Of a DNA stretch of 64,000 bases, positions 42,081-57,063 are shown piece by piece (positions within the stretch are counted from its first letter, which is position 1; each line of letters begins with the position of its first letter). The DNA lies in NCBI GenBank assembly GCA_015063185.1, contig SUSY01000002.1, positions 19,222 to 83,221 on the forward strand, read 5' to 3'. A program made the translations under genes and the position numbers. This DNA is from Thermoplasmata archaeon (GTDB lineage: Archaea > Thermoplasmatota > Thermoplasmata > Methanomassiliicoccales > Methanomethylophilaceae). Below the pieces are notes generated by a model. The model searched no databases and was not told the origin of the DNA. It worked only from the letters and a program-made list of their open reading frames with translations.

Positions 42081-42557
42081 ATGGCTACAGTCACACTGAA
42101 GACCAACATGGGAGACATCGACATCAAGATGTACGATGACATGCCCATCACCGCAGGCAACTTCGTCAAGCTCGTCAAAGAGGGATTCTATGACGGACTC
42201 ACATTCCACAGGGTCATTGCAGATTTCATGATCCAGGGAGGATGCCCCAACGGAACCGGAACCGGCGGACCCGGATACACCATCAAGGACGAGTTCGTCA
42301 AGGGACACTCCAACAAGAGGGGAACCATCTCCATGGCCAACGCAGGACCCAACACAGGCGGAAGCCAGTTCTTCATCAACCTCGTTGACAACGGCTACCT
42401 TGACTGGGACAACAGGTCCACCCCTTACGCGCACCCCGTCTTCGGAAAGGTCACCAAGGGAATGGAGGTCGTCGACGCGATCGCAGCTGTCGAGACCAAC
42501 AGGAACGACAAACCCCTCCAGGACGTCGTCATCGTTCAGGCGATCGTTGACGAGTGA
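42081..42557 (+). CDS. Cyclophilin-type peptidyl-prolyl cis-trans isomerase
   Basis: 158 aa; [50 protein letters not shown]. Confidence 0.94.
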
Positions 42558-42569
42558 ACAACATCTTAA

Positions 42570-42583
42570 GGGCCTTCGGGCCC
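42570..42583 (+). terminator. UUCG-capped GC hairpin after the cyclophilin gene
   Basis: GGGCC-TTCG-GGCCC. Confidence 0.5.
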
Positions 42584-42705
42584 CATCATTTCTAAGATAC
42601 GCTGATGCCCATCCTCTACACGAAGACGAGGAACCCATATAGGAGAGTTTGTAGTTCTGGCTATATCTCCAAGGTACAATCCTCGAAACCCACGAAGGAC
42701 GACAC

Positions 42706-43461
42706 ATGAAATGGATATCCCGTGACCCTTTGAAAAGAGAGGTCGATTCCAAGGACCATGATCTATTAGACGAAGTAGTGGAGAGGATCCTAAGCAAAGT
42801 CACCGCCACTTCGGACTTCGGAATCGAGTTACAGATCCACGACCTCCTTCTGAAGAACGTGAAATATGTCAACAAAGAGAGGAACACGGAACACACCATT
42901 GAGGGCCCCCTCCTCAACAAGAAGGCGGTCTGTGAAGGCATCGCCAAAGCGATGAAGTACCTAATGAACAGGAAAGGTGTAGAGTGCGAGATGGTCCTCG
43001 GAAAATTAGACGACGAAGAGGATGATGACATCTATCACGCGTGGAACGTGGTCCGTATCGATGGGGAATGGTATCACGTAGATGTCACCGCGGACATAGG
43101 GATATCCAATGGGAAATCCTTCCGTTACGATTACTTCAACCTCTCGGATGAGGAGATCTCCATGGACCACCTGATCATCAGATCGCCTGTAACCTGTAAT
43201 GTATCCAGGAACGGATACTATCATCGTATGGGCCTGGTGATCAACACACAGAAGGAATTCAAACGTATATTGGAAGAGAAACTGGAGAATGGAGAATCCG
43301 AATTCACATTCAAACTCCCTTCCGCCAAGGACCCCGAGAAGGTCACCACCACACTTATGAGACACATCGAGGAGATCACGGAGATCGTAGAACATCCTTT
43401 CAAAAGATACGAGATCAGTCCGAATCCGGATCAACTGGTGTACACCATAAGGTTCCTATGA
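42706..43461 (+). CDS. Transglutaminase-like cysteine protease superfamily protein
   Basis: 251 aa; Cys KKAVCEGIAKAMKYLMNRKGVECEMVLG, His DIYHAWNVVRIDGEWYHVDVTAD Asp; no signal peptide seen. Confidence 0.75.
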   Translation: MKWISRDPLKREVDSKDHDLLDEVVERILSKVTATSDFGIELQIHDLLLKNVKYVNKERNTEHTIEGPLLNKKAVCEGIAKAMKYLMNRKGVECEMVLGKLDDEEDDDIYHAWNVVRIDGEWYHVDVTADIGISNGKSFRYDYFNLSDEEISMDHLIIRSPVTCNVSRNGYYHRMGLVINTQKEFKRILEEKLENGESEFTFKLPSAKDPEKVTTTLMRHIEEITEIVEHPFKRYEISPNPDQLVYTIRFL

Positions 43462-45402
43462 CCTGTTACGATTCCAGAAGTTCCTGATCCTGTCGATGAA
43501 CATGGACATTCCACCCCTTATGCGTGACCTCCTATCCACGACCAATTCCTCTGGCACACATACATTGCTATCCAAGGAACGCGCCCTCTCGTACCATGCC
43601 CTGGCACCGTCAAGGTCGTTTGACGACATGCACCTTTCACCAATCCTCAACATAGCTGGCACATACCCTCTCTGTGCGGACGACGATAGATAGAGATCTG
43701 AGTGATAGTGATCGTGTAATTTATCCATAATCTCGGAATACAGGAACGCATATTCGGGAGCATCATCCGCAGCATCCTTGAAAGGTTGATGTATGGAAGG
43801 GGTTGCTGCCCAATCGACCTTGTCCTCCATGATGAACCTGTACAGCCTCACCATGGAATCCCCGCGCTTACCTTCGGAGACATCATCGATGCATTTCTGC
43901 TGGGAGGACCTCCGGGCCCTTTTCACGACCACCTGTGTGTCTGGAACGGCCTCGTCCTCCATTGACTGCACCACATCCTCCATCGGTTCGGAAATAGCCA
44001 TCGGTGAAAGAAGTGCCAGATCCTTGGCATACTCCAACAATTGCTTCGCAGGTGAGAATCCCTGGTCCGCGGAACGGGTCAGCCATTTAATCGCGTCGGA
44101 TTTTGATACGGGAACGCCGATACCATCCAAGAAACAGAGGCCCAACCTGTACTGCGCCTCTGCACTGGGTCTTTTGGAGGATGCTGACCTAAGGAAGTAT
44201 TCCGCTGCCTTACGGTCATTCTGTTGTTCCAAAATACCATCGGAACACAACCTCCCCATCACCAACAACGATACGGATGATCCGGATGCGGCCCTCTTCT
44301 TCAGCAACGGTAATTTCTCAGGATGATCCAGAATGAAATCGTAGTCCATGTCGAACACGTATTCCGCCTTGGATACTGGCACAGTACCTGGACTGATACC
44401 TCTGAGTGCCTGGGAATGCCTCCTATCCGCATCACAGAATGGACATGTACCGAGAACTCCATCGAACCTATGGACGTTGTTCACCTTGCACTGCACCGAG
44501 GCCTTCTCATACAGATCGATCTCCGTGAGGAACTCCTTTATGCTGGGTCTTACGGTGGGATCGGAGTATCCGTCTCTGAACATACGAACGAACAGCATCC
44601 GCAAATCCATTGGAACAGCTTCGAGAGGTATGCCGTGCGGAGGAGGTGCGATACCCAACCTGTTCTCCAGATATGGGAACGTGGGCGGATCCAACTCATA
44701 TGCGTACATGGGCTGATGGGACAGTTGACGGGTAGGCTTGTAGTTGAACGGGTGCTCCCCATTCATCAACAATCTGAACAGATGGACCGCTAATGTGTAT
44801 ACGTCGGATTCCTTGGTGAAAGGGAGATCCTTCTTCCTCTCATCGGGAAGGGATTCGTTGGCCTTCATAGCGGAACGGATCTCCATCGGTACCATCTCCG
44901 GCCTAGCCACCTTCCCTCCAAACCTGTCGAATATGAAGGAATCGGTATCCATCAGAGTGACGGTACGTCTCTTCACATCCACCTTTATGTTGGCAGGATT
45001 GAAATCTCCGAAGACGAACCCTGCCTCATGGACGTTGGACAATGCGATGCAGAGGTTCTTCGCTATGGTGAACTTGACATCCTGAGGTATTGCACGGTTC
45101 TTGGTGGATGTTGCATACACACTACTGAAGGAGTCGCCCTTCACACGTTTCATGACGAAACCTCTGAAAAGATTGCCTTCGAAGATTAACTCCTCCGGAA
45201 AGGACACATCCGTCGAGTGTTTCAGATTCGATTCCACCATCTTGGTAATCTTCGAAATCAGTTCCGGCTTCGGATCATGATAGATCTTCATCACACGTGT
45301 CGGATCACCTGCTATACTGTAGACTGCTCCTTCTCCACCACTTCCGAGCTTCTCGAGAGCGCGATAAATCTTGTTGTTGGATCTTCCACGGAGTTCTGCC
45401 AT
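43456..45402 (-). CDS. YegI-like divergent protein kinase with Zn-like motif and Sel1 repeats (kinase B)
   Basis: Likely start MAELRGRSNNKIYRALEKLGSGGEGAVYSI; RVMKIY; GFVFGDFNPANIKVD; LMDTDSF; C-x5-H-x8-C-x2-C (QCKVNNVHRFDGVLGTCPFC); Sel1-like AEYFLRSAS...AQYRLGLCFLDGIGVPVSKSDAIKWLTRSADQGFSPA. Confidence 0.85.
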   Translation of the reverse strand: MAELRGRSNNKIYRALEKLGSGGEGAVYSIAGDPTRVMKIYHDPKPELISKITKMVESNLKHSTDVSFPEELIFEGNLFRGFVMKRVKGDSFSSVYATSTKNRAIPQDVKFTIAKNLCIALSNVHEAGFVFGDFNPANIKVDVKRRTVTLMDTDSFIFDRFGGKVARPEMVPMEIRSAMKANESLPDERKKDLPFTKESDVYTLAVHLFRLLMNGEHPFNYKPTRQLSHQPMYAYELDPPTFPYLENRLGIAPPPHGIPLEAVPMDLRMLFVRMFRDGYSDPTVRPSIKEFLTEIDLYEKASVQCKVNNVHRFDGVLGTCPFCDADRRHSQALRGISPGTVPVSKAEYVFDMDYDFILDHPEKLPLLKKRAASGSSVSLLVMGRLCSDGILEQQNDRKAAEYFLRSASSKRPSAEAQYRLGLCFLDGIGVPVSKSDAIKWLTRSADQGFSPAKQLLEYAKDLALLSPMAISEPMEDVVQSMEDEAVPDTQVVVKRARRSSQQKCIDDVSEGKRGDSMVRLYRFIMEDKVDWAATPSIHQPFKDAADDAPEYAFLYSEIMDKLHDHYHSDLYLSSSAQRGYVPAMLRIGERCMSSNDLDGARAWYERARSLDSNVCVPEELVVDRRSRIRGGMSMFIDRIRNFWNRNRS

Positions 45403-45409
45403 GCCGACC

Positions 45410-46978
45410 TCATGCGAGCCTGTAGTAATCGTTCGATTCCACAATCTGCTTGGCGGTAATCAAAGTTGCTATCGCCTTACCCAAGCGATGAGAGGATCTG
45501 GGACTTCCATAACGATATCCCAAACGACGCTCGGTTTCCAGGATCAGATCGGAGAGGTGTACCGCACCCCTGTCCTTTATCACCGACAATAGGGCATTCC
45601 TCATATCCAGATATGACACTTGAGATATGGATTTGGCCCTTTTACCATCGGGCATACGCCTGTATTGACGGAAACGATCATAATCCGAAGGCGTGAGTGC
45701 ATATGTGACGAACGGACCGTCCTCCACGTGGAAGAAATCCTCCCTCAAGATCTTCCTCACGACGGCCTTCCCCGGTTTCGGATCCGATAGATATCTTCTG
45801 CAAAGGTCGATCAGGTAGGATTCGTCGATGGGCGATTGATCCTGTATCAACGATTCTGCAACGGATTGGATCGAACCGTTCGGTATGTCATCTGGGATAT
45901 CGGTGTAGAACGCACTACAATAACTGGTCATGCGGGGATTGTGCCTCGATGACGACATCATCCTACCCAATGCCTTGGAGTAATTGGATTCCGCCAGACA
46001 CAACGGACAACTGTGTACGCCCTCATGATAGTAGTGTACTGGATTCCTACGACACTGCTTCAACGAATTACGGTAATCGATCAGGGCGGAATGCCACTCC
46101 TTGGATGACGGACGATTGTCCTTGGTCAGGAATGCTCTGCTGAACAACAGTTTCATACCATCAGGTAAGGAGGAGAAACGCGGTGCGTAACTTGGAGCGA
46201 CTATGTGCTTGCCATCCGGATCCATGGATGGGACGGTTCCGCTCAGGATGTTGTCCCTGATCGTAGGGAGGTTGACATCGGAACCGGGACGTAACGCACC
46301 CTGAAAAGGATGTGCACCGTTCATCAATAATTGATAGATATGGATCGCCAATGAGAAATCATCCGATGATTCGGTGAATGTTGGTACCTTCAGGGACTCC
46401 AACGTCCTCCCTTTGGTGAGCCTCTTGGCGATCTCCGGGGCAAGATAGTTGGGCATACTGACCATACAACCGTACACCTTACCGTTGGAATTGATGTGAT
46501 ACGAATCGGTATCGACCAACTTCACATGACCGGACCTCATGTTGACGAACATGTTCTTAGGATTGAAGTCACCGATGACCTGCCCTGCATCATGGACCGC
46601 GTTCAGTGCACAACACAGGTTGATCGCGATGACCACCCTATGCGTCCACGGAGTGTTGGAATACTTGGCCTTGGATCCGATCTCGTAGATTGCACTGATG
46701 GATTCGCCACCGTAGATACGGTCCATGACGAAACCACGGAAATTTCCTCCTGAATCATATAGGGCATCCTTCGGCCATGCCAGGAGTTTGGAATCACGTA
46801 AGGGGGACAGGACCATGGCTCTGACCTTCTCCTCACGGAACTTCGTGGGAGACTTGTAGACCTTCGCCACGTGGTACTTGTCACCCATGATGGCATAGAG
46901 GTCCCCCTCACCGCCTCCGGCGATATGATCGGACAATCCGTACCTGTGACCACTCGTGCCTATGAGATACATCTTCAC
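45410..46978 (-). CDS. YegI-like divergent protein kinase with Zn-like motif (kinase A)
   Basis: YGLSDHIAGGGEGDLYAIMGDKYHVAKVYKSP; GQVIGDFNPKNMFVN; KLVDTDSYHI; QCRRNPVHYYHEGVHSCPLC; C-terminal winged-helix-like region. Confidence 0.85.
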   Translation of the reverse strand: MKMYLIGTSGHRYGLSDHIAGGGEGDLYAIMGDKYHVAKVYKSPTKFREEKVRAMVLSPLRDSKLLAWPKDALYDSGGNFRGFVMDRIYGGESISAIYEIGSKAKYSNTPWTHRVVIAINLCCALNAVHDAGQVIGDFNPKNMFVNMRSGHVKLVDTDSYHINSNGKVYGCMVSMPNYLAPEIAKRLTKGRTLESLKVPTFTESSDDFSLAIHIYQLLMNGAHPFQGALRPGSDVNLPTIRDNILSGTVPSMDPDGKHIVAPSYAPRFSSLPDGMKLLFSRAFLTKDNRPSSKEWHSALIDYRNSLKQCRRNPVHYYHEGVHSCPLCLAESNYSKALGRMMSSSRHNPRMTSYCSAFYTDIPDDIPNGSIQSVAESLIQDQSPIDESYLIDLCRRYLSDPKPGKAVVRKILREDFFHVEDGPFVTYALTPSDYDRFRQYRRMPDGKRAKSISQVSYLDMRNALLSVIKDRGAVHLSDLILETERRLGYRYGSPRSSHRLGKAIATLITAKQIVESNDYYRLA

Positions 46979-48312
46979 CTGGGCCTATCGGCTATGGACA
47001 TGGAGTCCAACCTGTTGGAATAGGTCTTCAACCCTTCGATCGTCGGATCGAGGAGCCTAGCCTTCCTCAGGAACACGTCCGCCTTATCGGATTCGCCCTT
47101 CGATGACCAATACTCTGCCATCAACAAGCATGCGGCCACATCGTTCAAGGCGATGGCGATGAGACAACGGTCCATCTGTTCCCGATCGTCCAACGATCCG
47201 AGAGTGGAAGTGTCCAGATATTCCTTCGCCTCCTGATCGCCTTCCTCGGCAGCGGCCCTGAATTGCAACGCAGCAAGACTGCGCATACCCATACGCAACA
47301 TCGCCTTCGCCCTTTCCAATGCCTCGGATCCCTTAGATATGGCCTCCTTCACGATCTCGGTGACAGGATTCTCATCGGGCTGTTCGATCGGTCCCTCCTC
47401 AATCTCTTCGATGGGCTCTTCGACTGGATCTTCCTTCGAAGCACCACCATCCTTGTACAATGACGGGTAAGCTTTCCTCTTCCATTCCTCATTGAGTGCA
47501 GCCCAATCCGGTTCCTTGTAGTATTCGTCACCGCGGTATTCGGACGTGACATGGATGTTCATCGCTGCGATGAACGTGAGGTCATCGTTTGTGATTCCCT
47601 TGTGGATGTCGCTGTAGAGATAGCTTAACCTTTTAGCAAAACAATCCTCGATCGGCGTACCCTTCCTCTCGAAGAACTTGAAATCCGCCAACCAACTGAC
47701 GAGACGGATGTATATTGGCTCGTCCGTGAGTTTCAGACGTCCGGGCATCAAAAGGTCAAGGACACCGTCGGTCATGGCCATGACCGAGACGAATGGACCA
47801 TCCCTCTGACCGAACTCCCATGCGGACAGGTCCCTCAATGGCTTGACCGAATTGGCCTCCGCACCCTTCTGCGGAGTGGTGATGGATTCAACGACTCCAT
47901 TCAACCCTATTGCAAGGATGGCCCCATCCCCGGAATGGCCGTATACCAGATTGCCGGATTCGGCATCGAACACTGCAGTGGATAAGGTGGTGTCATAGTC
48001 ACAGGGCCAACCGGTCCCTTCCGCTGTATGTTGGTCGATGGCCGACCATGCCTTCTCGTAGGCCTCGCGGATCACATCGGGCGTGAACGGAGGTTCTACA
48101 CCCTCAAGATACCTTTTGACCGTATCGACGGCTATGCGGGACCCCTCATCGGAACGCTCCGCACTGCCGACACCATCCGCAACGATCAATATCGCTATGT
48201 TCGGATGGTTCGGGTGCAGACCGAAATGATTGCTGTCCTGACACGGTTTTCCGGTGGACTCATGGGAACGTCCGCGCTTCGATCCACCGTAGGCACGGAT
48301 GTCGTATTCCAT
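46975..48312 (-). CDS. PP2C-type protein phosphatase with C-terminal helical repeats
   Basis: Likely start MEYDIRAYGGSKRGRSHESTGKPCQDSNHF; VADGVGSAERSDEGSRIAV; YGHSGDGAI; MAMTDGVLDLL; TNDDLTFIA. Confidence 0.88.
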   Translation of the reverse strand: MEYDIRAYGGSKRGRSHESTGKPCQDSNHFGLHPNHPNIAILIVADGVGSAERSDEGSRIAVDTVKRYLEGVEPPFTPDVIREAYEKAWSAIDQHTAEGTGWPCDYDTTLSTAVFDAESGNLVYGHSGDGAILAIGLNGVVESITTPQKGAEANSVKPLRDLSAWEFGQRDGPFVSVMAMTDGVLDLLMPGRLKLTDEPIYIRLVSWLADFKFFERKGTPIEDCFAKRLSYLYSDIHKGITNDDLTFIAAMNIHVTSEYRGDEYYKEPDWAALNEEWKRKAYPSLYKDGGASKEDPVEEPIEEIEEGPIEQPDENPVTEIVKEAISKGSEALERAKAMLRMGMRSLAALQFRAAAEEGDQEAKEYLDTSTLGSLDDREQMDRCLIAIALNDVAACLLMAEYWSSKGESDKADVFLRKARLLDPTIEGLKTYSNRLDSMSIADRPR

Positions 48313-48316
48313 CTGA

Positions 48317-49024
48317 TCACCAGTCGGACACATCACGATCTGGGTCGTACTTACGTGCATCCTGTGGCAACGGATTCAACTTGTTCTCGTTATCGGGAGA
48401 ACTGACGGAGATCACGGTCATACTGTCGGAAAGCCAATTGAATATGCCGTCGAAGTTGGCGGTACGGAGCTCGATGACCCTGCTGGTGAGCGATGAGAGG
48501 ACATCCCTGTTGGCATTGTCGACGGCAACAGCGAAGAACTTGAGCTTTCCGTGCTGACCCTTGGCTTCCTCCTCCTTTATCCTGATCCTTGCGGTCTCGA
48601 TCTCGGATGGCGCCTCACCCTCGGGCATTCCATCCGTGATCATGAAGATCCATGGTTTGAAACAAGGTGTTCCGAGGTTGTTGTAGAACCTGTTGCGTTC
48701 TTTGACAAGATCGATGGCGGTGTTGATTCCCTTTCCCATCGCGGTGTACCCGCCTGCCATGAGATTGATGGGCTGGAGCTCGGAGATGGGCACGAAATCC
48801 TGGACGACATTCACTTCCGAATTGAACTCAACAACGGCGACGTCGACCCTGTTCTTCGACTCCTCGTTCTTACAGACCTGCATCTTGAAATCGCTGACGG
48901 CCTTGTTGAGATTGTCGATACAACCCGTCATAGACCCCGATGTGTCCAGAAGGAGAACGCATGCAAGGTGCGGTTCGTTGGTTGCTTCGATACGTGCTTC
49001 CTCACCAAAAGATATCTGTTCCAT
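48317..49024 (-). CDS. vWA-domain protein (TerY/YegL-like)
   Basis: 235 aa; MIDAS VLLLDTSGSM, GGYTAMGKGI, FMITDGMPEG. Confidence 0.88.
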   Translation of the reverse strand: MEQISFGEEARIEATNEPHLACVLLLDTSGSMTGCIDNLNKAVSDFKMQVCKNEESKNRVDVAVVEFNSEVNVVQDFVPISELQPINLMAGGYTAMGKGINTAIDLVKERNRFYNNLGTPCFKPWIFMITDGMPEGEAPSEIETARIRIKEEEAKGQHGKLKFFAVAVDNANRDVLSSLTSRVIELRTANFDGIFNWLSDSMTVISVSSPDNENKLNPLPQDARKYDPDRDVSDW

Positions 49025-49114
49025 TTCAATCCCACAGGTGCACGCACGTAGTAGGATAAAAACTATAGCAATTTACGATAAGAAAAATACGATTTTTACA
49101 GCATGTGCCAGACA

Positions 49115-51745
49115 TCAAAGGAAATCGGACTTGAACTCCACGGTGAGACGATCGTTTCCTCTGATGCACGAATCGATCGTCCTGAGCAACCTTTCGGAAT
49201 CCATCGATTTCAATTCCTGGAACAACCTCTTGGTGAGACCGTCGTCCTTTCTCGTACCGCGTCCGGAATTGGACAGGAGCATCAACCTGTACTTTGCATC
49301 GAAGTTGCCGTTCTCCGAGGACAGGGTGTACCACCTGAACGCCTCCGCATAGAACTGAGGCATACCCAGACCCTTCTCGAACATCCTTCCGAGAAGGAAC
49401 TGGGCCTCCGGATCGTTATCATGTGCGGCCAGCCTCAACCTCCTTATCGCTTCAGGATGCCCCTTGACGTCACTGCCTGGTAATGAGAGGATACGACCGA
49501 TCTTGCGGTTCGATACCATGTTGCCGGAATCCGCGGACCTCCTGTAATGGTCCAATGCGACAGAGATGTCACGCTTCACGGCACCCGAAGATATCATGTC
49601 CGCACAGATGATGGATGACTCCAAATGACCCAGATTGGAGGCCGATTCGAACCAGTCGTAAGCAAGTGATTCGGACCTCTCGACTCCGTCGCCCTCCAGG
49701 TACATCTCGCCTATCGCATGATACACATCCATATCTGGCTCATCTGACAGCATCATCAATCCGCGATATCTTTCCTCTCCGGATGAGGACATTATCCTGG
49801 ACCTATCCAATCTTTCCTTGGCATCATCCGAACCTAGCTCTATGGCCCTCTGATAATGTTTTCTCGCCAAACTGTACGATGTACTGACCCCGTCACCCGA
49901 CTCGTAACAATGACCCAGACGATATTGGATCATTGGGTCGTCATGATACATGAACAACCTGTACTTCGAGAACCATTGTCCCTCCGGAACATCGTCGCTG
50001 GATAGATCAATACGTTCTGTTGCATCCGAATTCCCGTTGGCGGATGCACGCTCGTACCATTGTAACGCCTCATCCATATCCGCCCTGTCACGGGCCTTCG
50101 ATTCGAGGTATGCTGCCAACCAGAGCTGTGAATCGGAATCGCCACCTATGGCCAATGACCTACGATACCTCACCGCCGTATGGATGCCCTTCTTGGTACC
50201 GATACCGTTCTCGTAACGAACGGCCAACTCCCGGATCACCGAAGGATCTCCCTCCTCCGAACGCAGGAGCAGCCTTCTCATGCATTCTGTATCCGATAAG
50301 GAACCTAGATCGGACACGTCCACCAATTGTGCGGCCCTTTCGTTCCCTGCATTCGCAGACTTGATGAACCACTGAAGTGCCAGATGATAATCCTTCAGAT
50401 TGGACAATTCATACAGCTCTCCAATGCGGAACATCAGATCGTGTATCCGGATCTCCGGAGGCGACCTCACACGACATATGAGATCCGAGAACACTGGCAC
50501 ATCCGATTCTGTGGAATCGATAATTGCATTGTACCATTGTATGGCCTGATCATAGGATACGGTACCGGCCACACCGGACTCGTAGCATTGTGCCAGCAAA
50601 TATCTCGCATAGTTATCCCCAGCATATGCTGGCAATCTAGCCTCCGTGAACACCATCGGATCCGTGCCGGATGCGTCCAATTCCAGACGGTTGCCAGCGT
50701 ACCTATTACCAAGATCCGCTGACTCCCGATACAGTTGGCATATGCCCTTCGCATCGATACCGTCGATCCCTTTTCCGGATGAAAAATCGAATGTACTCTC
50801 ATAACAGGATGCCAACTTGAAGAGTGCATCCGGATCCTTTCCGCACTTCTTGTATGCCCTGATGGCCTTCGAGATGTTAGGGGCCATCCTCCCAAGACCG
50901 TTCTGATGTATCAGACCCAAACGATAGGATGCTCTGATACAGCCCTTGGACTGTGCCTTCTTATAGAGTTCCACCACCTTGGTAGCGGACGCGCCCTTGA
51001 ATGAAGGATTGACCCTCAGGTTATGCTCGAAATGGTTCGCGAGATGATACGATACCAATGGATCCTCGCCATCGGTGACCTTGTTGATGATATAGCAACG
51101 ACGATACGAATCCTCGTCCAATATCCCATCCGGCCTGCCATCGAGAAAATCCGAGGAAAGATACCCTGTAGCGGAATCGTTCCCCCTGGCCAAAGAACGT
51201 GAATAGAACTCCGCTGCAGAATCCAGCTTACATGCGCCGTTCAACTTCTCTGCGAATTCGAACTCCGATGAACCGTCCGGATTCCAGAACAGGTCAGTAT
51301 CGTTGAGCGTATCCTTCACACCCAACTTGGACAGGAAACCGGATGCGAGGAGATTAACCACATCCTGTTGTATCACGGCACTGAGATCCCTGAAGTCATG
51401 GATGTCCTCGAAATACATGGCGAATGCCGACTCTATCTCCGAATGCTGTACAGGGAACACTGAGAAGTTCGAGCACCTGTAGTTCTGGATTATGTGCATC
51501 TCCAGATCCATCAACATCCTGCGGATCACATATGGAAGTTCGCGCCCGCTCCTCTCATTCTGGATCGATAGAGAATAAGGCAATCCCGAATCGTGATCCA
51601 ACCTGTCTCCCGGAGACTTCCTGAAATTGGACTCCCTCAGGGTATAGAATCTGAAATTGGAATCATCGATACAGTATAGTCTATACTTACCCTTGGAAGA
51701 GGGTTCGTTCTCACAATCCAGGACGTATAGTGATGTGCGCCTCAT
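49115..51745 (-). CDS. Large Sel1-like-repeat protein with unassigned N-terminal domain
   Basis: 876 aa; about 200-aa non-repeat N-terminus, then many SLR units such as AIRAYKKCGKDPDALFKLASCYE and AFRWYTLSSENGNFDAKYRLMLL. Confidence 0.85.
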   Translation of the reverse strand: MRRTSLYVLDCENEPSSKGKYRLYCIDDSNFRFYTLRESNFRKSPGDRLDHDSGLPYSLSIQNERSGRELPYVIRRMLMDLEMHIIQNYRCSNFSVFPVQHSEIESAFAMYFEDIHDFRDLSAVIQQDVVNLLASGFLSKLGVKDTLNDTDLFWNPDGSSEFEFAEKLNGACKLDSAAEFYSRSLARGNDSATGYLSSDFLDGRPDGILDEDSYRRCYIINKVTDGEDPLVSYHLANHFEHNLRVNPSFKGASATKVVELYKKAQSKGCIRASYRLGLIHQNGLGRMAPNISKAIRAYKKCGKDPDALFKLASCYESTFDFSSGKGIDGIDAKGICQLYRESADLGNRYAGNRLELDASGTDPMVFTEARLPAYAGDNYARYLLAQCYESGVAGTVSYDQAIQWYNAIIDSTESDVPVFSDLICRVRSPPEIRIHDLMFRIGELYELSNLKDYHLALQWFIKSANAGNERAAQLVDVSDLGSLSDTECMRRLLLRSEEGDPSVIRELAVRYENGIGTKKGIHTAVRYRRSLAIGGDSDSQLWLAAYLESKARDRADMDEALQWYERASANGNSDATERIDLSSDDVPEGQWFSKYRLFMYHDDPMIQYRLGHCYESGDGVSTSYSLARKHYQRAIELGSDDAKERLDRSRIMSSSGEERYRGLMMLSDEPDMDVYHAIGEMYLEGDGVERSESLAYDWFESASNLGHLESSIICADMISSGAVKRDISVALDHYRRSADSGNMVSNRKIGRILSLPGSDVKGHPEAIRRLRLAAHDNDPEAQFLLGRMFEKGLGMPQFYAEAFRWYTLSSENGNFDAKYRLMLLSNSGRGTRKDDGLTKRLFQELKSMDSERLLRTIDSCIRGNDRLTVEFKSDFL

Positions 51746-51761
51746 GATTGGTTGTTCGGAA

Positions 51762-53282
51762 TCAACTTGTCAGATCTGCATATGCGGCCTTCGCATCCTC
51801 GTCACCGAGGTCCGCCGCCCTCTTGTACAATTCGATCGCCTTGTCGATGGACATGTCCACACCATAACCGGACTCGTACAGGACGGCAAGGTTGTACAAA
51901 GAGGACACATGATTCTGCTCTGCCGCCTTTGTGAACCATTTGGCGGCATCCGCATAGGATTCGTCGACACCGATTCCATTGAGGTACATCATACCAAGAT
52001 TGAACTGTGCGATGGCGTATCCATTGGATGCGGATTCGTTGTACCAGGTGAGTGCGGATGCCTCGGACTGTTCCACACCGAGACCGTTCTGATAGAGATA
52101 AGCGAGATTGTTCTGCGCCATGGGGTGACCCTGGTTCGCAGCACGCGTGTAGTACTCGGATGCGGTGATGTACGACTGCTCGATACCGTCACCGCTCTCA
52201 CACAACAGTCCCAGATGATACTGTGCCCTTGCATAGTTCTGCTCTGCGGCCTTCTTATACCACTTGACCGCCTCGTCGTAGGACTGTTCGACACCCTGGC
52301 CGTTCTGGTACATGACACCGATGATGTTCTGGGCCCTCGCATATCCTTGAAGTGCGGACTTCTTGTACCACACCACTGCATCTATGTAGGACTGCTTCCT
52401 TCCCTTCCCATACTGGTACATCCAACCGGTATCGCACTGTGCGATGGCGTTACCTTCCTCCGCCTTCGAGATGAATCTCTCGGCGTTCTCGGTCATCCAT
52501 TCCGCAAGTTCCTCGTCGGATACGTCCTTCTCGGATGGTACGAGACTGTGAAGCACACTGCGTGCCATCAGGTGTCCGTTGTCGGATGCAAGCTTGTACC
52601 ACTTGACCGCTTCGCCATAGGACTCGTTGACATTGTAACCGGAACCGTACATCCTTGCCACCGTGTACTGGGCCCAGATATCGCCTTTCTTAGCCTCTGC
52701 GACCTGTGCATCGATACCGTTCGGATCGACCTTCACGCTGCTGGACTGGATGGACGGACCCATCGCCTTCTCGGTGGAACGCTTGAGGGACCTCTTAGAT
52801 CCCGTGGATACTGCCCTGGGAGATACGTACTCGGAGATGCTCTTGGTGATTATCGGCATGGATGCCATGAGATTCTCGTATTCCCAAAGATCCAACCACT
52901 GGTATCTGCTGAGAAGGAGTTCCAATGCAGGAGGGAACATGAGCTTCTCTTCGAATATCAAAGGAATGATGATCTTATCGCGCCTCTTGGCGGCATTGAT
53001 CTCGTCGGGAACGAAGGTGGAGCCGTTGATGGCACTTGTACATACCAATACGAATACGGGGCATTCGCAGATTCCGTTCATGATCCCCTCTTCGTACATA
53101 CTTCCGGCAGGGATGTCACGCGGAGCGATCCAACACTTGAAACCTGCGGCTTCGAGATTGTTGCAAAGGTCCCTCGCGATACCTTTGTCGTCGGACGAAT
53201 GACTGATGAACACCTGATATGTGGAATCTGCAGATTGGGCCATGATATCCAAGGATGGTAGGGACGTATTCATTAAAAACAA
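51762..53282 (-). CDS. TIR-domain protein with C-terminal Sel1-like repeats
   Basis: 506 aa; TYQVFISHSSDDKGIARDLCNNLEAAGFKCWIAPRDIPAGSMYEEGIMNGI...STFVPDEINAAKRRDKIIIPL (TIR), then about 8 regular SLR units with YQNGQGVEQSYDEAVKWYKKAAEQ consensus. Confidence 0.92.
   Translation of the reverse strand: MFLMNTSLPSLDIMAQSADSTYQVFISHSSDDKGIARDLCNNLEAAGFKCWIAPRDIPAGSMYEEGIMNGICECPVFVLVCTSAINGSTFVPDEINAAKRRDKIIIPLIFEEKLMFPPALELLLSRYQWLDLWEYENLMASMPIITKSISEYVSPRAVSTGSKRSLKRSTEKAMGPSIQSSSVKVDPNGIDAQVAEAKKGDIWAQYTVARMYGSGYNVNESYGEAVKWYKLASDNGHLMARSVLHSLVPSEKDVSDEELAEWMTENAERFISKAEEGNAIAQCDTGWMYQYGKGRKQSYIDAVVWYKKSALQGYARAQNIIGVMYQNGQGVEQSYDEAVKWYKKAAEQNYARAQYHLGLLCESGDGIEQSYITASEYYTRAANQGHPMAQNNLAYLYQNGLGVEQSEASALTWYNESASNGYAIAQFNLGMMYLNGIGVDESYADAAKWFTKAAEQNHVSSLYNLAVLYESGYGVDMSIDKAIELYKRAADLGDEDAKAAYADLTS
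51780..52680 (-). repeat. In-frame tandem ~108-bp repeats encoding 36-aa Sel1-like units
   Basis: Recurrent AxxWYxxAAxxxxAxAQxxLGxxYxxGxGVxxSYxx units in the TIR protein. Confidence 0.8.
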
Positions 53283-53291
53283 TATCCTATT

Positions 53292-54935
53292 CTATTGTCT
53301 GTGTACAGTTATACCCATACTCCTGAGGATGGGTATCATGTTCCTCACCGCTTCGCGATCGTATTCCCTGATGCTCTCCGGTATGACGCCCCAAGGTGCG
53401 ATGTATGGGGAGATCCTGTTATCTGAATCCTTCTTCTCACCGTACACCCAACCGCTGGACTTGCGCTCGGTGACCCAACGGTCGTGCTCCAATATGGAAA
53501 GGAACTCCACCTCGCCTTCGGAGAGCTCGTCCATCGCGGTATCTGGATCACCATCCTGGGACATGACGCATCCGATCGCAACGATCTTGTCGAAGTATCC
53601 GTAGGCCTGTTTGATGTTGGATAGCTTCAGATCGTCACGGAGGTTATCCCAACTACCGTATTCGGTCTGACCTTCCTCCTTACGTCTCCTCACATAATCA
53701 TCATGGATGGCCATCGCGACCTCCTCGATCCTGTCTATGAAGAATGCGGGAATCTCCGGATCCATCATGTCGGAACCTTTCAGGAACAATTCTGCCGAAC
53801 GTTCACAGGTACATACGATATCCAATCCGTTCGGGAAGAGCTCCTCCACCTTCAACAACCTGTTCAATGTCTTACCCTTCGATTCGGGGAAGGATTCCGA
53901 CATTGCTATGGACGAGGTCCTGTACTCTATGGACATCCCATCATCAGAGATCACATATCTGGATTTGGATGGATAGACACTCTTGACAGTGGCACCGTAT
54001 GCGACACGGTTCCATTCCTGCAGCTCATCACAGAGGATCAACAGATAGGAGATTGGATCTGAATCCAGGGACAAAGGGCCCAGATTGAACGGTTCCCTTG
54101 TGAACGTGTGGTTGTGGAAGTTGTGCATCAGGATTGCGGATGCTCCCTCCACTACGGGTACGATGGCATCCTTACCGTATTGACCATGGATGTTGCTCAT
54201 CCATTTCATCAACATGAGTGCACTGAAATACCCATGATCGACGAAACATGTCCTATACATGTTATCCTCATACCCTTTCAGAGCAGAGATTGCATCCTGC
54301 AACGGAATGCCCAGGATGGAAGAGATCCTGTCAGCCATCATCTCAAGGGAATCCTGACCATCGTGATGGACCATCAGGTCCTCCATCCCCCTGATCATAG
54401 GTACCGGTGTGATCTTCGAATCCTCACGATAACATGCGGACCTGAGGAACCTTCTGATCTTGTTGTAGGATATCTCTATGGGATACCCCATATCATGGAA
54501 CATGGATGCCAGACCCCAAACGTACAGGAACTCCTCGTCCGTGTTTTCAAGAGAGATGTCCGTCCTATGATCCGTGAATGCATCCCTGAACCTCTTGGAC
54601 GATGCGTATATGGAAAGACCGAGAATGAACACGTTGATGGAGTGTACGTAATGGTCCCTCTGACTGTCCACCATCTTGTCGGCACGTTTCTCGTACGCAT
54701 GCATCAACTCGATCAGACCGAGGAGATCGGCCTCCCCCGACAACCTATACGAGTTCCTGAACGTGCGATAGATGACGGATGCATTCTCCTCCGTTTCCGA
54801 TGAAGAGAATTCCTTCAGGGCCTCCCTCAATATGGTCAACGTTCCCTTGTTACCTTTGGTATCCTTGGAGAACAATGAATCGAAGAAGGAGTCCACGTAT
54901 TTCCTTGTGAAGAGTCCGGGCATCTCTGAGGCCAT
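53292..54935 (-). CDS. HD-domain phosphohydrolase fused to C-terminal RyR domain
   Basis: 547 aa; HD-like RDHYVHSINVFILGL...LASMFHDMGYPIE...VDHGYFSALMLMKW...AILMHNFHN...LLILCDELQEWNR; RyR-like LSILEHDRWVTERKSSGWVYGEKKDSDNRISPYIAPWGVIPESIREYDREAVRNMIPIL. Confidence 0.78.
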   Translation of the reverse strand: MASEMPGLFTRKYVDSFFDSLFSKDTKGNKGTLTILREALKEFSSSETEENASVIYRTFRNSYRLSGEADLLGLIELMHAYEKRADKMVDSQRDHYVHSINVFILGLSIYASSKRFRDAFTDHRTDISLENTDEEFLYVWGLASMFHDMGYPIEISYNKIRRFLRSACYREDSKITPVPMIRGMEDLMVHHDGQDSLEMMADRISSILGIPLQDAISALKGYEDNMYRTCFVDHGYFSALMLMKWMSNIHGQYGKDAIVPVVEGASAILMHNFHNHTFTREPFNLGPLSLDSDPISYLLILCDELQEWNRVAYGATVKSVYPSKSRYVISDDGMSIEYRTSSIAMSESFPESKGKTLNRLLKVEELFPNGLDIVCTCERSAELFLKGSDMMDPEIPAFFIDRIEEVAMAIHDDYVRRRKEEGQTEYGSWDNLRDDLKLSNIKQAYGYFDKIVAIGCVMSQDGDPDTAMDELSEGEVEFLSILEHDRWVTERKSSGWVYGEKKDSDNRISPYIAPWGVIPESIREYDREAVRNMIPILRSMGITVHRQ

Positions 54936-54981
54936 GAACGTTGATGGTCGAGGACATTCAATAGGATTGTGCCTACCAGGA

Positions 54982-56661
54982 TCATTTCTTCAGATGCTTA
55001 CCAAGATAGTAATATGCATCCGTCAGGGTCTTTGTGAGATGATACCATGTATCCCTAGGATGATAGACCATGCTGACATACTTCTCATGCTTCGCATCCA
55101 CTGGCCACTTCATAGCAGCGAGGGCTGCCCTGGTCTTGGGTGACAACGGGGATGCGAGGACTCTCAACCAGGCCTTTATGTTCTTGTATCCGAGATCGAT
55201 CATCCTGTCCGGGAACAGGTCTTTCACGATATCAGAATAGGCCAGTTCGCCGTTGGTCACATGCTCGTAGATATCCAACCTCTGTCTCTCTTCCTCGCAG
55301 ACATCCTTGAATATGGGCTCACCTTCGGAAGATATGCCGACTATAGGAGGTTCAGGACTGGAGAGGAAGAACTCCGTGAGGTTCACATTGTCCCAGAGTT
55401 TGATGGTCTTATCACGTGTGTGATACCCTTTGTGCTCGATGTTGGGATCATCATTCAGTATGAAATAGTACAGACCTTCGACCTTAGCATCGGGAAAGAT
55501 GTCGGAGATCAGTTTCTGTGAGGAATATTTCATCGTTGTCACATCCACGATGGATATGTTATCGTATTCTCCCAGTGTCTTCGCATACTTGTTGAATAAA
55601 TCCTTACGTTTTTTCTTTATCTCCACTTTGTTCTCTTCGAAGAAAGTGTATGGATCGCCTTCAAAATCCGGGTAGAAGTAATTGACAAGGACCTCCTGAT
55701 ACCCTTTGTAACTCTTGTAATTGGAACCTATGAGTATGTTGAGGAAACGGGGAGCATAGATGTACAGACTCTCATCGAAACTGTTCCTATCATGATACTG
55801 TTTCATGTTGTACCCATCACGGGCGACGAAGAACAACGTACTGTCCTTATCACGATTCTTCTCGATGAACCTCATGTAGTCGAAGAGTAACGGCCCACCG
55901 AACCTATATGCGACATCATACCAGAAATCGTTACCTTTCTCATAGGAGTGGATCATATCCAGAGATACGATCATCGATCTCTCAACAGATCTATTGGCCA
56001 GATAGAACTTATGGATCAAAGGGTGTTTTCTTAGATAGTTGTCTATTGGACGTCTGACATTGGCACAGTATATTCCGAGACTCCTTGGTACACGATAATC
56101 GGAATGCTTGTTGTCACCGAAATGGATGATCTCGTCAGGATGTATCCTCTTCTCGGCCAACATCCTCTTGAATAGGTTTCCGGAATGCTTGTTGCAATTG
56201 TGTTCGCATGAGACGTACAGGTCCGTGTACCCTTCCAATCCACACAGTTTGAGAAGATGTTCAAGATACCTCTTCGGAAGGTACATGTCGGAGATGAGAT
56301 AGACCTCACGTTTCTTGCATAATGCATTGAATGCGTCCCTGACCTCGGGAAGACAGAATGCACACATCTCGAACTCCAACTCCGTCCTCTTCAGATGTGC
56401 ATACTTCGGGTCGATCGTCTCATAGATGTTGGCAAAGGTCGTCTCTCCTGACCATTTGTCCCTTGCCAGATGTTCCGCACGAATTCTCTCCTTCGCGAAC
56501 CCTGGAGCGTTGGAGAATTTCTCGATGTGTTTGAAGAGGTCCCTCGGTTTCACATAGGGTCTCAACAGAAGCGTGTCATAGATGTCGAAGGAGATGTACT
56601 TGTATTTCCTGGCCTCGGTGAATAACCACCTGATGTCCGTGATGTCCCCATGCTTCGTCAT
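54982..56661 (-). CDS. Large HAD-superfamily protein (cell-surface polysaccharide-type)
   Basis: 559 aa; ISFDIYDTLLLRPYVKPRDLFKHIE, VYLISDMYLPKRYLEHLL, IHFGDNKHSDYRVPRSLGI. Confidence 0.75.
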   Translation of the reverse strand: MTKHGDITDIRWLFTEARKYKYISFDIYDTLLLRPYVKPRDLFKHIEKFSNAPGFAKERIRAEHLARDKWSGETTFANIYETIDPKYAHLKRTELEFEMCAFCLPEVRDAFNALCKKREVYLISDMYLPKRYLEHLLKLCGLEGYTDLYVSCEHNCNKHSGNLFKRMLAEKRIHPDEIIHFGDNKHSDYRVPRSLGIYCANVRRPIDNYLRKHPLIHKFYLANRSVERSMIVSLDMIHSYEKGNDFWYDVAYRFGGPLLFDYMRFIEKNRDKDSTLFFVARDGYNMKQYHDRNSFDESLYIYAPRFLNILIGSNYKSYKGYQEVLVNYFYPDFEGDPYTFFEENKVEIKKKRKDLFNKYAKTLGEYDNISIVDVTTMKYSSQKLISDIFPDAKVEGLYYFILNDDPNIEHKGYHTRDKTIKLWDNVNLTEFFLSSPEPPIVGISSEGEPIFKDVCEEERQRLDIYEHVTNGELAYSDIVKDLFPDRMIDLGYKNIKAWLRVLASPLSPKTRAALAAMKWPVDAKHEKYVSMVYHPRDTWYHLTKTLTDAYYYLGKHLKK

Positions 56662-56697
56662 CTTCGGGATAAATGAATCTGCTGGGATATAAGACTC

Positions 56698-57063
56698 TCA
56701 TACGAGAGGCCTGCTCTCCAGAACTAGATGGGTTCCGGAACGAAGATAGATGAGGGGAACACCGTGCTTTCTGAGCTTACTCCTGAGCAACTTGTCGTTG
56801 GTCAGGACGTATGCGTTCTCACGAAGGGCCAATTCTATGACGGAAGCGTCACCTGTGGCATCGGTCTTGATTATGGTGTATCTCCTCGCAAGGTCCAACG
56901 CTGCGTTGGCATACTTGTGCTTGAGGTGCTTCAGTTCACCGATCAGTGGTCCGGGGACGACAAAACGTACATCCCCAAGAAGGTCACGAACTGCGTAATC
57001 AAGATTGATACGCAGTTCGAAAGGCATTAGTAAAGCGTTTGTGTCGAGAACGACGGTCTGCAT
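56698..57063 (-). CDS. PIN-domain protein (Fcf1/VapC-like nuclease fold)
   Basis: 121 aa; MQTVVLDTNALLMPFEL...IGELKHLK...ATGDASVIELALRENAYVLTNDKLLRSKL. Confidence 0.85.
   Translation of the reverse strand: MQTVVLDTNALLMPFELRINLDYAVRDLLGDVRFVVPGPLIGELKHLKHKYANAALDLARRYTIIKTDATGDASVIELALRENAYVLTNDKLLRSKLRKHGVPLIYLRSGTHLVLESRPLV

Follow-up and report, generated by a model that had tools for sequence, protein, structure and literature searches.

A recurrent TIR/HD-RyR gene pair beside a TerY-P-like cassette in a chromosomal island of a Methanomethylophilaceae archaeon

Introduction

Do seven closely spaced genes for TIR, RyR, HD, Sel1-repeat, vWA, PP2C and kinase proteins constitute one signalling system, or do separate systems lie side by side? 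The question is raised by seven consecutive open reading frames (ORFs) on the minus strand at positions 43456-54935 of a 64,000-nucleotide stretch (hereafter, the window) from the genome of a Thermoplasmata archaeon of the family Methanomethylophilaceae (GCA_015063185.1, contig SUSY01000002.1). A sequence-only reading of the window had treated the row as a single cluster, in which a TIR protein and an RyR-HD protein form a signal producer/sensor pair gated by reversible phosphorylation and held together by shared Sel1 repeats. Our analysis indicates that the seven genes are a local combination and not one conserved system. The row is composed of two modules that share a chromosomal island: module 1 (42706-51745), a predicted TerY-P-like reversible-phosphorylation cassette with additional partners, and module 2 (51762-54935), consisting of the genes for TIR-SLR, a TIR protein with Sel1 repeats, and HD-RyR, a fusion of an HD phosphohydrolase domain with an RyR domain. 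The novel part of the locus is the TIR-SLR/HD-RyR pair.

Results and Discussion

TIR genes recur beside HD-RyR genes

When 84,980 species genomes were scanned for relatives of HD-RyR, 76 loci were identified, chiefly from Bacillota, Chloroflexota, Actinomycetota and Methanobrevibacter. Genes in the neighbourhoods were called by a simple procedure on draft contigs and scored with hidden Markov models built for this analysis. Among them are genes for TIR-LRR, TIR-TPR, TIR-NB-ARC-TPR, DUF4062-NACHT-TPR/WD40 and RyR-TrkA proteins and for further RyR proteins. TIR was found in 19 of the 143 close co-oriented neighbours versus one of the 276 far genes, an approximately 35-fold enrichment (Fisher p = 8e-9), whereas extra RyR genes accounted for 20/143 close co-oriented neighbours and 0/276 far genes (p = 2e-10); both p-values are optimistic because the loci share ancestry. 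At 28 of the 42 loci outside Methanobrevibacter, HD-RyR is adjoined by a co-oriented gene for a TIR, DUF4062-STAND or LRR (C10) protein. Furthermore, the domains are fused in two proteins: a single TIR-TIR-HD-RyR polypeptide (L082:12288-15500), present once in 21 Methanobrevibacter genomes, and a TIR-TIR-RyR protein, also from Methanobrevibacter (L182:1154-2698).

Among 60 relatives of the window genome that were searched, full-length HD-RyR was present in one only (G022), where it stands with a TIR gene and with an RyR protein bearing a weak match to the SLOG family. In the tree the window protein groups with that of G022 and with proteins of gut Bacillota and Actinomycetota, and in the supported five-member clade to which it belongs a TIR gene is located within two genes of HD-RyR in all five cases. 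Since long branches in the tree may attract, we make no firm claim of transfer. The enrichment across phyla and the two fusions support TIR and HD-RyR as probable functional partners, and in this respect the earlier proposal of a TIR/RyR-HD partnership is borne out. The pairing recurs in bacteria and archaea and looks undescribed: no description of HD-RyR together with TIR was found in the literature searched, which comprised open papers, and priority elsewhere is possible.

No relatives of HD-RyR were found in viral contigs or on plasmids, and phage records gave two weak, unannotated gut-phage matches. One of these, in MT836912.1 (4120-5880), is 26% identical to HD-RyR residues 36-503, and phages may carry HD-RyR proteins. 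Several other genes near HD-RyR loci deserve mention. In two Chloroflexota loci (L042:6937-8778 and L045:6839-8458) HD-RyR is adjoined by a gene whose product combines a TrkA_N domain with RyR, is probably a membrane protein and resembles an RyR-gated channel. At L056:4692-8186 and at several other Methanobrevibacter loci, across which it is conserved, a gene for a protein kinase fused to HSP70 (1164 amino acids, aa) precedes HD-RyR by two to three genes, and two proteins with several tandem TIR-like domains are encoded about 5 kb beyond the TIR-TIR-RyR gene of L182.

Domains and conserved residues of HD-RyR and TIR-SLR

The RyR domain of HD-RyR was recognized by Pfam above the curated cut-off (RyR, PF02026; 7.6e-12). 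In an AlphaFold2 model of the protein (predicted local distance difference test score 84) this domain matched Repeat12 of human RyR3 and the Bt-hRyR chimera with Z scores of about 15 (15.2 over 154 residues for structure 6uhi, 14.8 for RyR3 Repeat12 with AMP-PCP); RyR Repeat12 structures bind AMP-PCP, ADP and ATP. According to a 2026 preprint, phage RyR-domain proteins destroy or sequester TIR-made cyclic ADP-ribose (cADPR) signals, binding or cleaving the 2'/3'cADPR made by Thoeris TIR proteins; in RyDEP, a glycosidase acting on cADPR signals, residues H75, W78 and D117 bind and cleave 2'/3'cADPR (PMC13232231). When compared by spacing, without structure superposition, H484, W487 and D526 of HD-RyR lie at the exact spacing of these three RyDEP residues, and they are conserved in 69/69, 69/69 and 68/69 sequences, respectively.

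The sequence-only reading could be confirmed for the RyR, TIR, Sel1, VWA, PP2C and kinase domains, all of which scored above the Pfam cut-offs, but not in the same way for the HD domain: the Pfam HD model gave no match in HD-RyR up to an E value of 0.1, and the assignment is based on ligands and fold instead. The predicted metal ligands H95, H98, H147-D148, H234, H271 and D303 are invariant or nearly so (71-72 of the 72 aligned sequences). When the N-terminal domain, which is helical in the model, was folded alone, the top 50 aligned structures all belonged to the HD superfamily, namely cyclic-nucleotide phosphodiesterases (PDEs) and PPX/GppA proteins (Z 10-10.8). These data support the prediction that the N-terminal half is a PDE-like HD domain.

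TIR-SLR was matched by Pfam TIR_2 (3.2e-21) and Sel1 (5.3e-59) above the curated cut-off, and its putative catalytic residue, Glu94, aligns with the conserved Glu of the TIR structure 7uxr. In searches with PADLOC and NCBIfam the protein weakly matched several TIR systems, at the level of the TIR domain, and nothing was retrieved for HD-RyR. The TIR partners at other HD-RyR loci carry LRR or TPR repeats, not Sel1. Because LRR and TPR take its place elsewhere, the Sel1 region is better regarded as the repeat sensor of TIR-SLR itself than as a scaffold shared with the kinases, and the scaffold role once assigned to it is not upheld.

The chromosomal island and its counterpart in the sister genome

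The island is absent from three congeners (G002, G004 and G005), in which the PPIase and PIN/VapC-like genes that bound it in the window lie tail to tail, no more than about 12 bp apart. In the closest sister genome, G001, an island is found at the same PPIase gene (98% identical) and contains the genes for the transglutaminase-like protein, kinase B, kinase A, PP2C, vWA and SLR-876; it spans two contigs, with a break inside kinase A and a contig end inside SLR-876. TIR-SLR of G001 (75% identical) is encoded on a different contig, between MORN-repeat-like and protease-like genes (flanks named by eye from the ORFs), and HD-RyR is missing from this genome, which is 93% complete. Since the sister keeps the TerY-P half and has a solitary TIR-SLR without HD-RyR, the two modules are separable. 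The sequence-only reading had looked for at least four of the genes to be kept together elsewhere; G001 does keep five, but all of them (SLR-876, vWA, PP2C and the two kinases) come from the TerY-P half. No target-site or terminal repeats were found at the island ends.

A Thoeris-like model for the pair

Thoeris consists of ThsB, a TIR cyclase, and ThsA, an effector whose SLOG or Macro sensor is fused to SIR2 or to a membrane part; it signals through cADPR isomers and leads to abortive infection. Module 2 resembles it in that a TIR protein with an equivalent of the catalytic glutamate (E94) stands with a partner in which a nucleotide-binding domain is predicted to be fused to a hydrolase, and the related pair in G022 is accompanied by the RyR protein with the weak SLOG-family match. 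It differs in that the responder is HD-RyR, while SIR2, SLOG and Macro domains are absent from the seven proteins as judged by Pfam, PADLOC and NCBIfam. Among proteins with the RyR (PF02026) fold, phage RyDEP shares with HD-RyR the H, W and D residues at the same spacing, but HD-RyR is a host gene product, is fused to HD and has TIR neighbours. The Bacteroides thetaiotaomicron protein 3nrt belongs to the same RyR domain family, but is a small stand-alone protein without HD or TIR.

Pairs of the type seen in module 2 are widespread, and we somewhat favour the view that this one is engaged in Thoeris-like signalling by an RyR-gated hydrolase. According to this model, the repeat part of TIR-SLR would sense an infection cue, upon which the TIR domain would use NAD+ to make a 2'/3'cADPR-like ADP-ribose signal; this TIR-made signal would be bound by RyR in HD-RyR, and the metal-dependent, PDE-like HD domain would respond. 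The ligand, the chemistry and the immune role of the pair are what we infer from these comparisons. More tentatively, and with a chance somewhat short of even, the combination of HD-RyR and a TIR-repeat (or STAND) protein may be a form of Thoeris-like immunity that is so far undescribed and is common among methanogens and gut Clostridia. TIR-made cADPR would then be received by the RyR domain of the host protein, which would switch on a PDE-like effector.

Several observations weigh against this model. The position of RyDEP H100, which binds phosphate, is occupied by Ser509 in HD-RyR, and by S, T or H across the family. The behaviour of seven of the eight phage RyR homologues in the preprint shows that conservation of the residues does not imply cleavage: apart from RyDEP, the homologues examined there left the signals intact, and six of eight bound them (PMC13232231). 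The conserved RyR residues are therefore no sure guide to either catalysis or ligand. For the HD fold, the structural matches are remote (8-15% identity, Z about 11), and Foldseek by itself gave weak matches that were not significant. Helical models can reach Z scores of about 11 by chance. Finally, 12/42 loci outside Methanobrevibacter and 14/29 within it are without a TIR, STAND, LRR or extra RyR neighbour as scored here, some of the contigs being truncated.

Alternative explanations

The likeliest alternative to the favoured model concerns the direction in which HD-RyR acts. Instead of an effector it could be an off-switch, whose RyR domain opens or holds the cADPR signal while HD hydrolyses the product, so that the TIR response ends and the effector is another protein. 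Conservation of H484 and D526, the equivalents of the RyR catalytic dyad, speaks for such a role, as does the glycosidase activity of RyDEP on these signals, and at several loci the effector could be another RyR protein, one that has a TrkA or membrane part. On the other hand, most RyR homologues in the preprint bind without cleaving (PMC13232231), no further RyR or SLOG responder is present in the window, and the sister genome has a solitary TIR without the switch. We regard the off-switch as rather unlikely, and have a modest preference for HD as an effector that would attack the nucleotide pool or a second messenger. It is also conceivable, with a low probability, that RyR senses another adenine nucleotide (ATP, ADP or AMP) and that signalling by the pair is metabolic or stress-related rather than immune; the nucleotides bound by Repeat12 and the housekeeping genes flanking the island would agree with this, but the recurrent TIR, STAND and NACHT neighbours, the TIR fusions and the patchy distribution fit conflict systems better.

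The remaining two explanations concern the row as a whole. That the island is simply a hotspot, in which the modules have accumulated and TIR-SLR and HD-RyR are unrelated arrivals, would account for the empty site in the congeners and for the different nearest relatives of the two proteins (G001 for TIR-SLR, 75%; G022 for HD-RyR, 55%). It is hardly compatible with TIR occurring beside HD-RyR far above background in other genomes, or with the fusions, and we consider it improbable. Least likely of all is a single integrated system of seven or eight genes, in which the TerY-P cassette (de)phosphorylates TIR-SLR or HD-RyR and thereby gates the signal, with Sel1 as a common scaffold. Its attraction lies in the close spacing on the same strand and in the Sel1 repeats of three proteins. 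However, the modules are apart in the sister genome, no other HD-RyR locus among those examined contains the TerY-P triad, in five other genomes TerY-P occurs with the transglutaminase but with neither TIR nor RyR, and a conserved promoter-like element precedes vWA. The phosphorylation gating proposed earlier is left with adjacency as its basis and is not retained here.

The conserved host HD-RyR family, with its TIR neighbours and fusions, offers a direct candidate, open to experiment, for a cADPR receptor of the RyR type in hosts; no host RyR protein with an assigned part in cADPR signalling was found in the open literature searched. The pair possibly defines a new Thoeris-like class, and it bears on how animal ryanodine receptors came to sense nucleotides. 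If the pair is indeed such an immune system, the nucleotide-binding Repeat12 of the animal receptor and the phage proteins whose RyR domains break down or sequester signals would both be related to an immune receptor domain.

Organization of the gene row

The seven-gene row and the gaps reported for it (9, 16, 90, 4, -4 and 7 bp) were reproduced with Met17 as the start of PP2C and Met15 as that of kinase B, which are the starts of the homologues in the sister genome. The 9-bp gap between HD-RyR and TIR-SLR requires a TTG start of TIR-SLR; with its ATG the gap is 18 bp. The coordinates of all features are given in Table 1.

Table 1. Features of the island and its genes in the window
Feature	Coordinates	Strand	Basis and remarks
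Island, 14,140 bp	42558..56697		bounded by stop codons of PPIase (42081-42557) and PIN/VapC-like gene (56698-57063)
Transglutaminase-like protein, 251 aa	42706..43461	+	Pfam Transglut_core 9e-12; convergent to kinase B; homologue beside kinases in G001
Kinase B: Ser/Thr kinase, zinc-ribbon-like motif, Sel1	43456..45402	-	ATG 45402, ORF open to 45444
Kinase A: Ser/Thr kinase, zinc-ribbon-like motif, ProA-related C-terminal domain	45410..46978	-	Pfam, motifs, hhalign
PP2C-type phosphatase with C-terminal extension	46975..48312	-	ORF open to 48360; PP2C_2
TerY-like vWA protein, MIDAS D27xSxS	48317..49024	-	VWA; 89% identical in G001
Promoter-like ATAGTTTTTATCCTAC	49051..49066	-	about 27 bp ahead of vWA ATG; kept in sister species
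SLR-876: Sel1-repeat protein, 7 Pfam repeats	49115..51745	-	56% identical in G001, adjoining vWA
TIR-SLR: N-terminal TIR (~52869-53219), 7 Sel1 repeats	51762..53273	-	ATG 53273, ORF open to 53282
HD-RyR: predicted HD phosphohydrolase (~residues 90-310), two-repeat RyR (~residues 395-547)	53292..54935	-	
HAD-type protein, within island	54982..56661	-	Pfam Hydrolase 2e-4, under cut-off

The HAD-type gene upstream of HD-RyR was considered as a possible further member of the system and rejected: no association was found, its homologues are located elsewhere in G002, G005 and G035, and none was found in G001.

The TerY-P-like cassette

The TerY-P triad is defined by a vWA protein, a PP2C phosphatase and a Ser/Thr kinase with a C-terminal zinc ribbon (PMC11090510; Anantharaman 2012 as cited there). 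The domains and motifs of the vWA, PP2C and kinase proteins of module 1 match this definition, so that recognition of a TerY-P-like triad in the window proved correct. The vWA protein (Pfam VWA, 7.7e-10) has a metal-ion-dependent adhesion site (MIDAS) formed by D27TSGS, T94 and D131, whereas PP2C (PP2C_2, 1.9e-30) has DG motifs at D62 and D198. Both kinases were matched by Pkinase above the curated cut-off (1.2e-8 for kinase B, 5.6e-8 for kinase A) and have intact catalytic motifs, GDFNPAN/DTD in kinase B and GDFNPKN/DTD in kinase A. The sequence-only reading had called the kinase HhH-type, but an HhH domain was found in neither of the two; instead, a putative zinc-ribbon-like motif, C..H..CxxC, follows the kinase domain in both (C309..CxxC in kinase A).

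Unlike the published triad, the cassette has two kinases, one with Sel1 repeats and one with a ProA-like C-terminus, and additionally includes a Sel1 protein and a transglutaminase-like partner. Pfam Sel1 matched SLR-876 with 2.5e-48 and kinase B with 1e-14. According to hhalign, the C-terminal domain of kinase A (45410-45946, minus strand) is homologous with the C-terminal region of ProA, an anti-phage protein (probability 97.2, E 3.9e-11), as represented by the ProA identified above the NCBIfam cut-off in G035 (L017:6782-12763). Antiphage kinase-OB relatives of TerY-P were reportedly described by Gao in 2020. In PADLOC the kinases matched mainly PD-T4-6-type kinases, and vWA, PP2C and HD-RyR remained without a match.

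The transglutaminase-like gene, an eighth gene that lies beyond the row as first delimited, belongs to the kinase part as judged from gene neighbourhoods. Its homologues stand beside a TerY-type kinase, usually with vWA and PP2C, in six genomes (G001, G035, G115, G103, G107 and G116), and in a further one (G113) a TerY-type kinase lies within 5 kb; the association is seen in both relative orientations. Of the nine best matches in the order, the window included, eight are near a TerY-type kinase, the exception being G041. Such adjacency extends across several genera of the family, and the transglutaminase-like partner would be a new component of TerY-P cassettes in methanogens.

A direct comparison of intergenic regions revealed that the promoter-like element in the 90-bp gap ahead of vWA is kept between the window and locus L015 of the sister genome. 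The element may act as a promoter, and because it is conserved and precedes vWA, at least two transcription units are suggested for the row. No RNA structure was found in this gap (z -0.18).

Phage protein families also match TerY-P proteins: phrog_28389 matches vWA (1.7e-32) and phrog_37888 kinase A (3.3e-35). In an organism distantly placed within the same taxonomic class, four tandem TerY-like vWA genes are followed by PP2C and kinase genes (L150:4356-8113).

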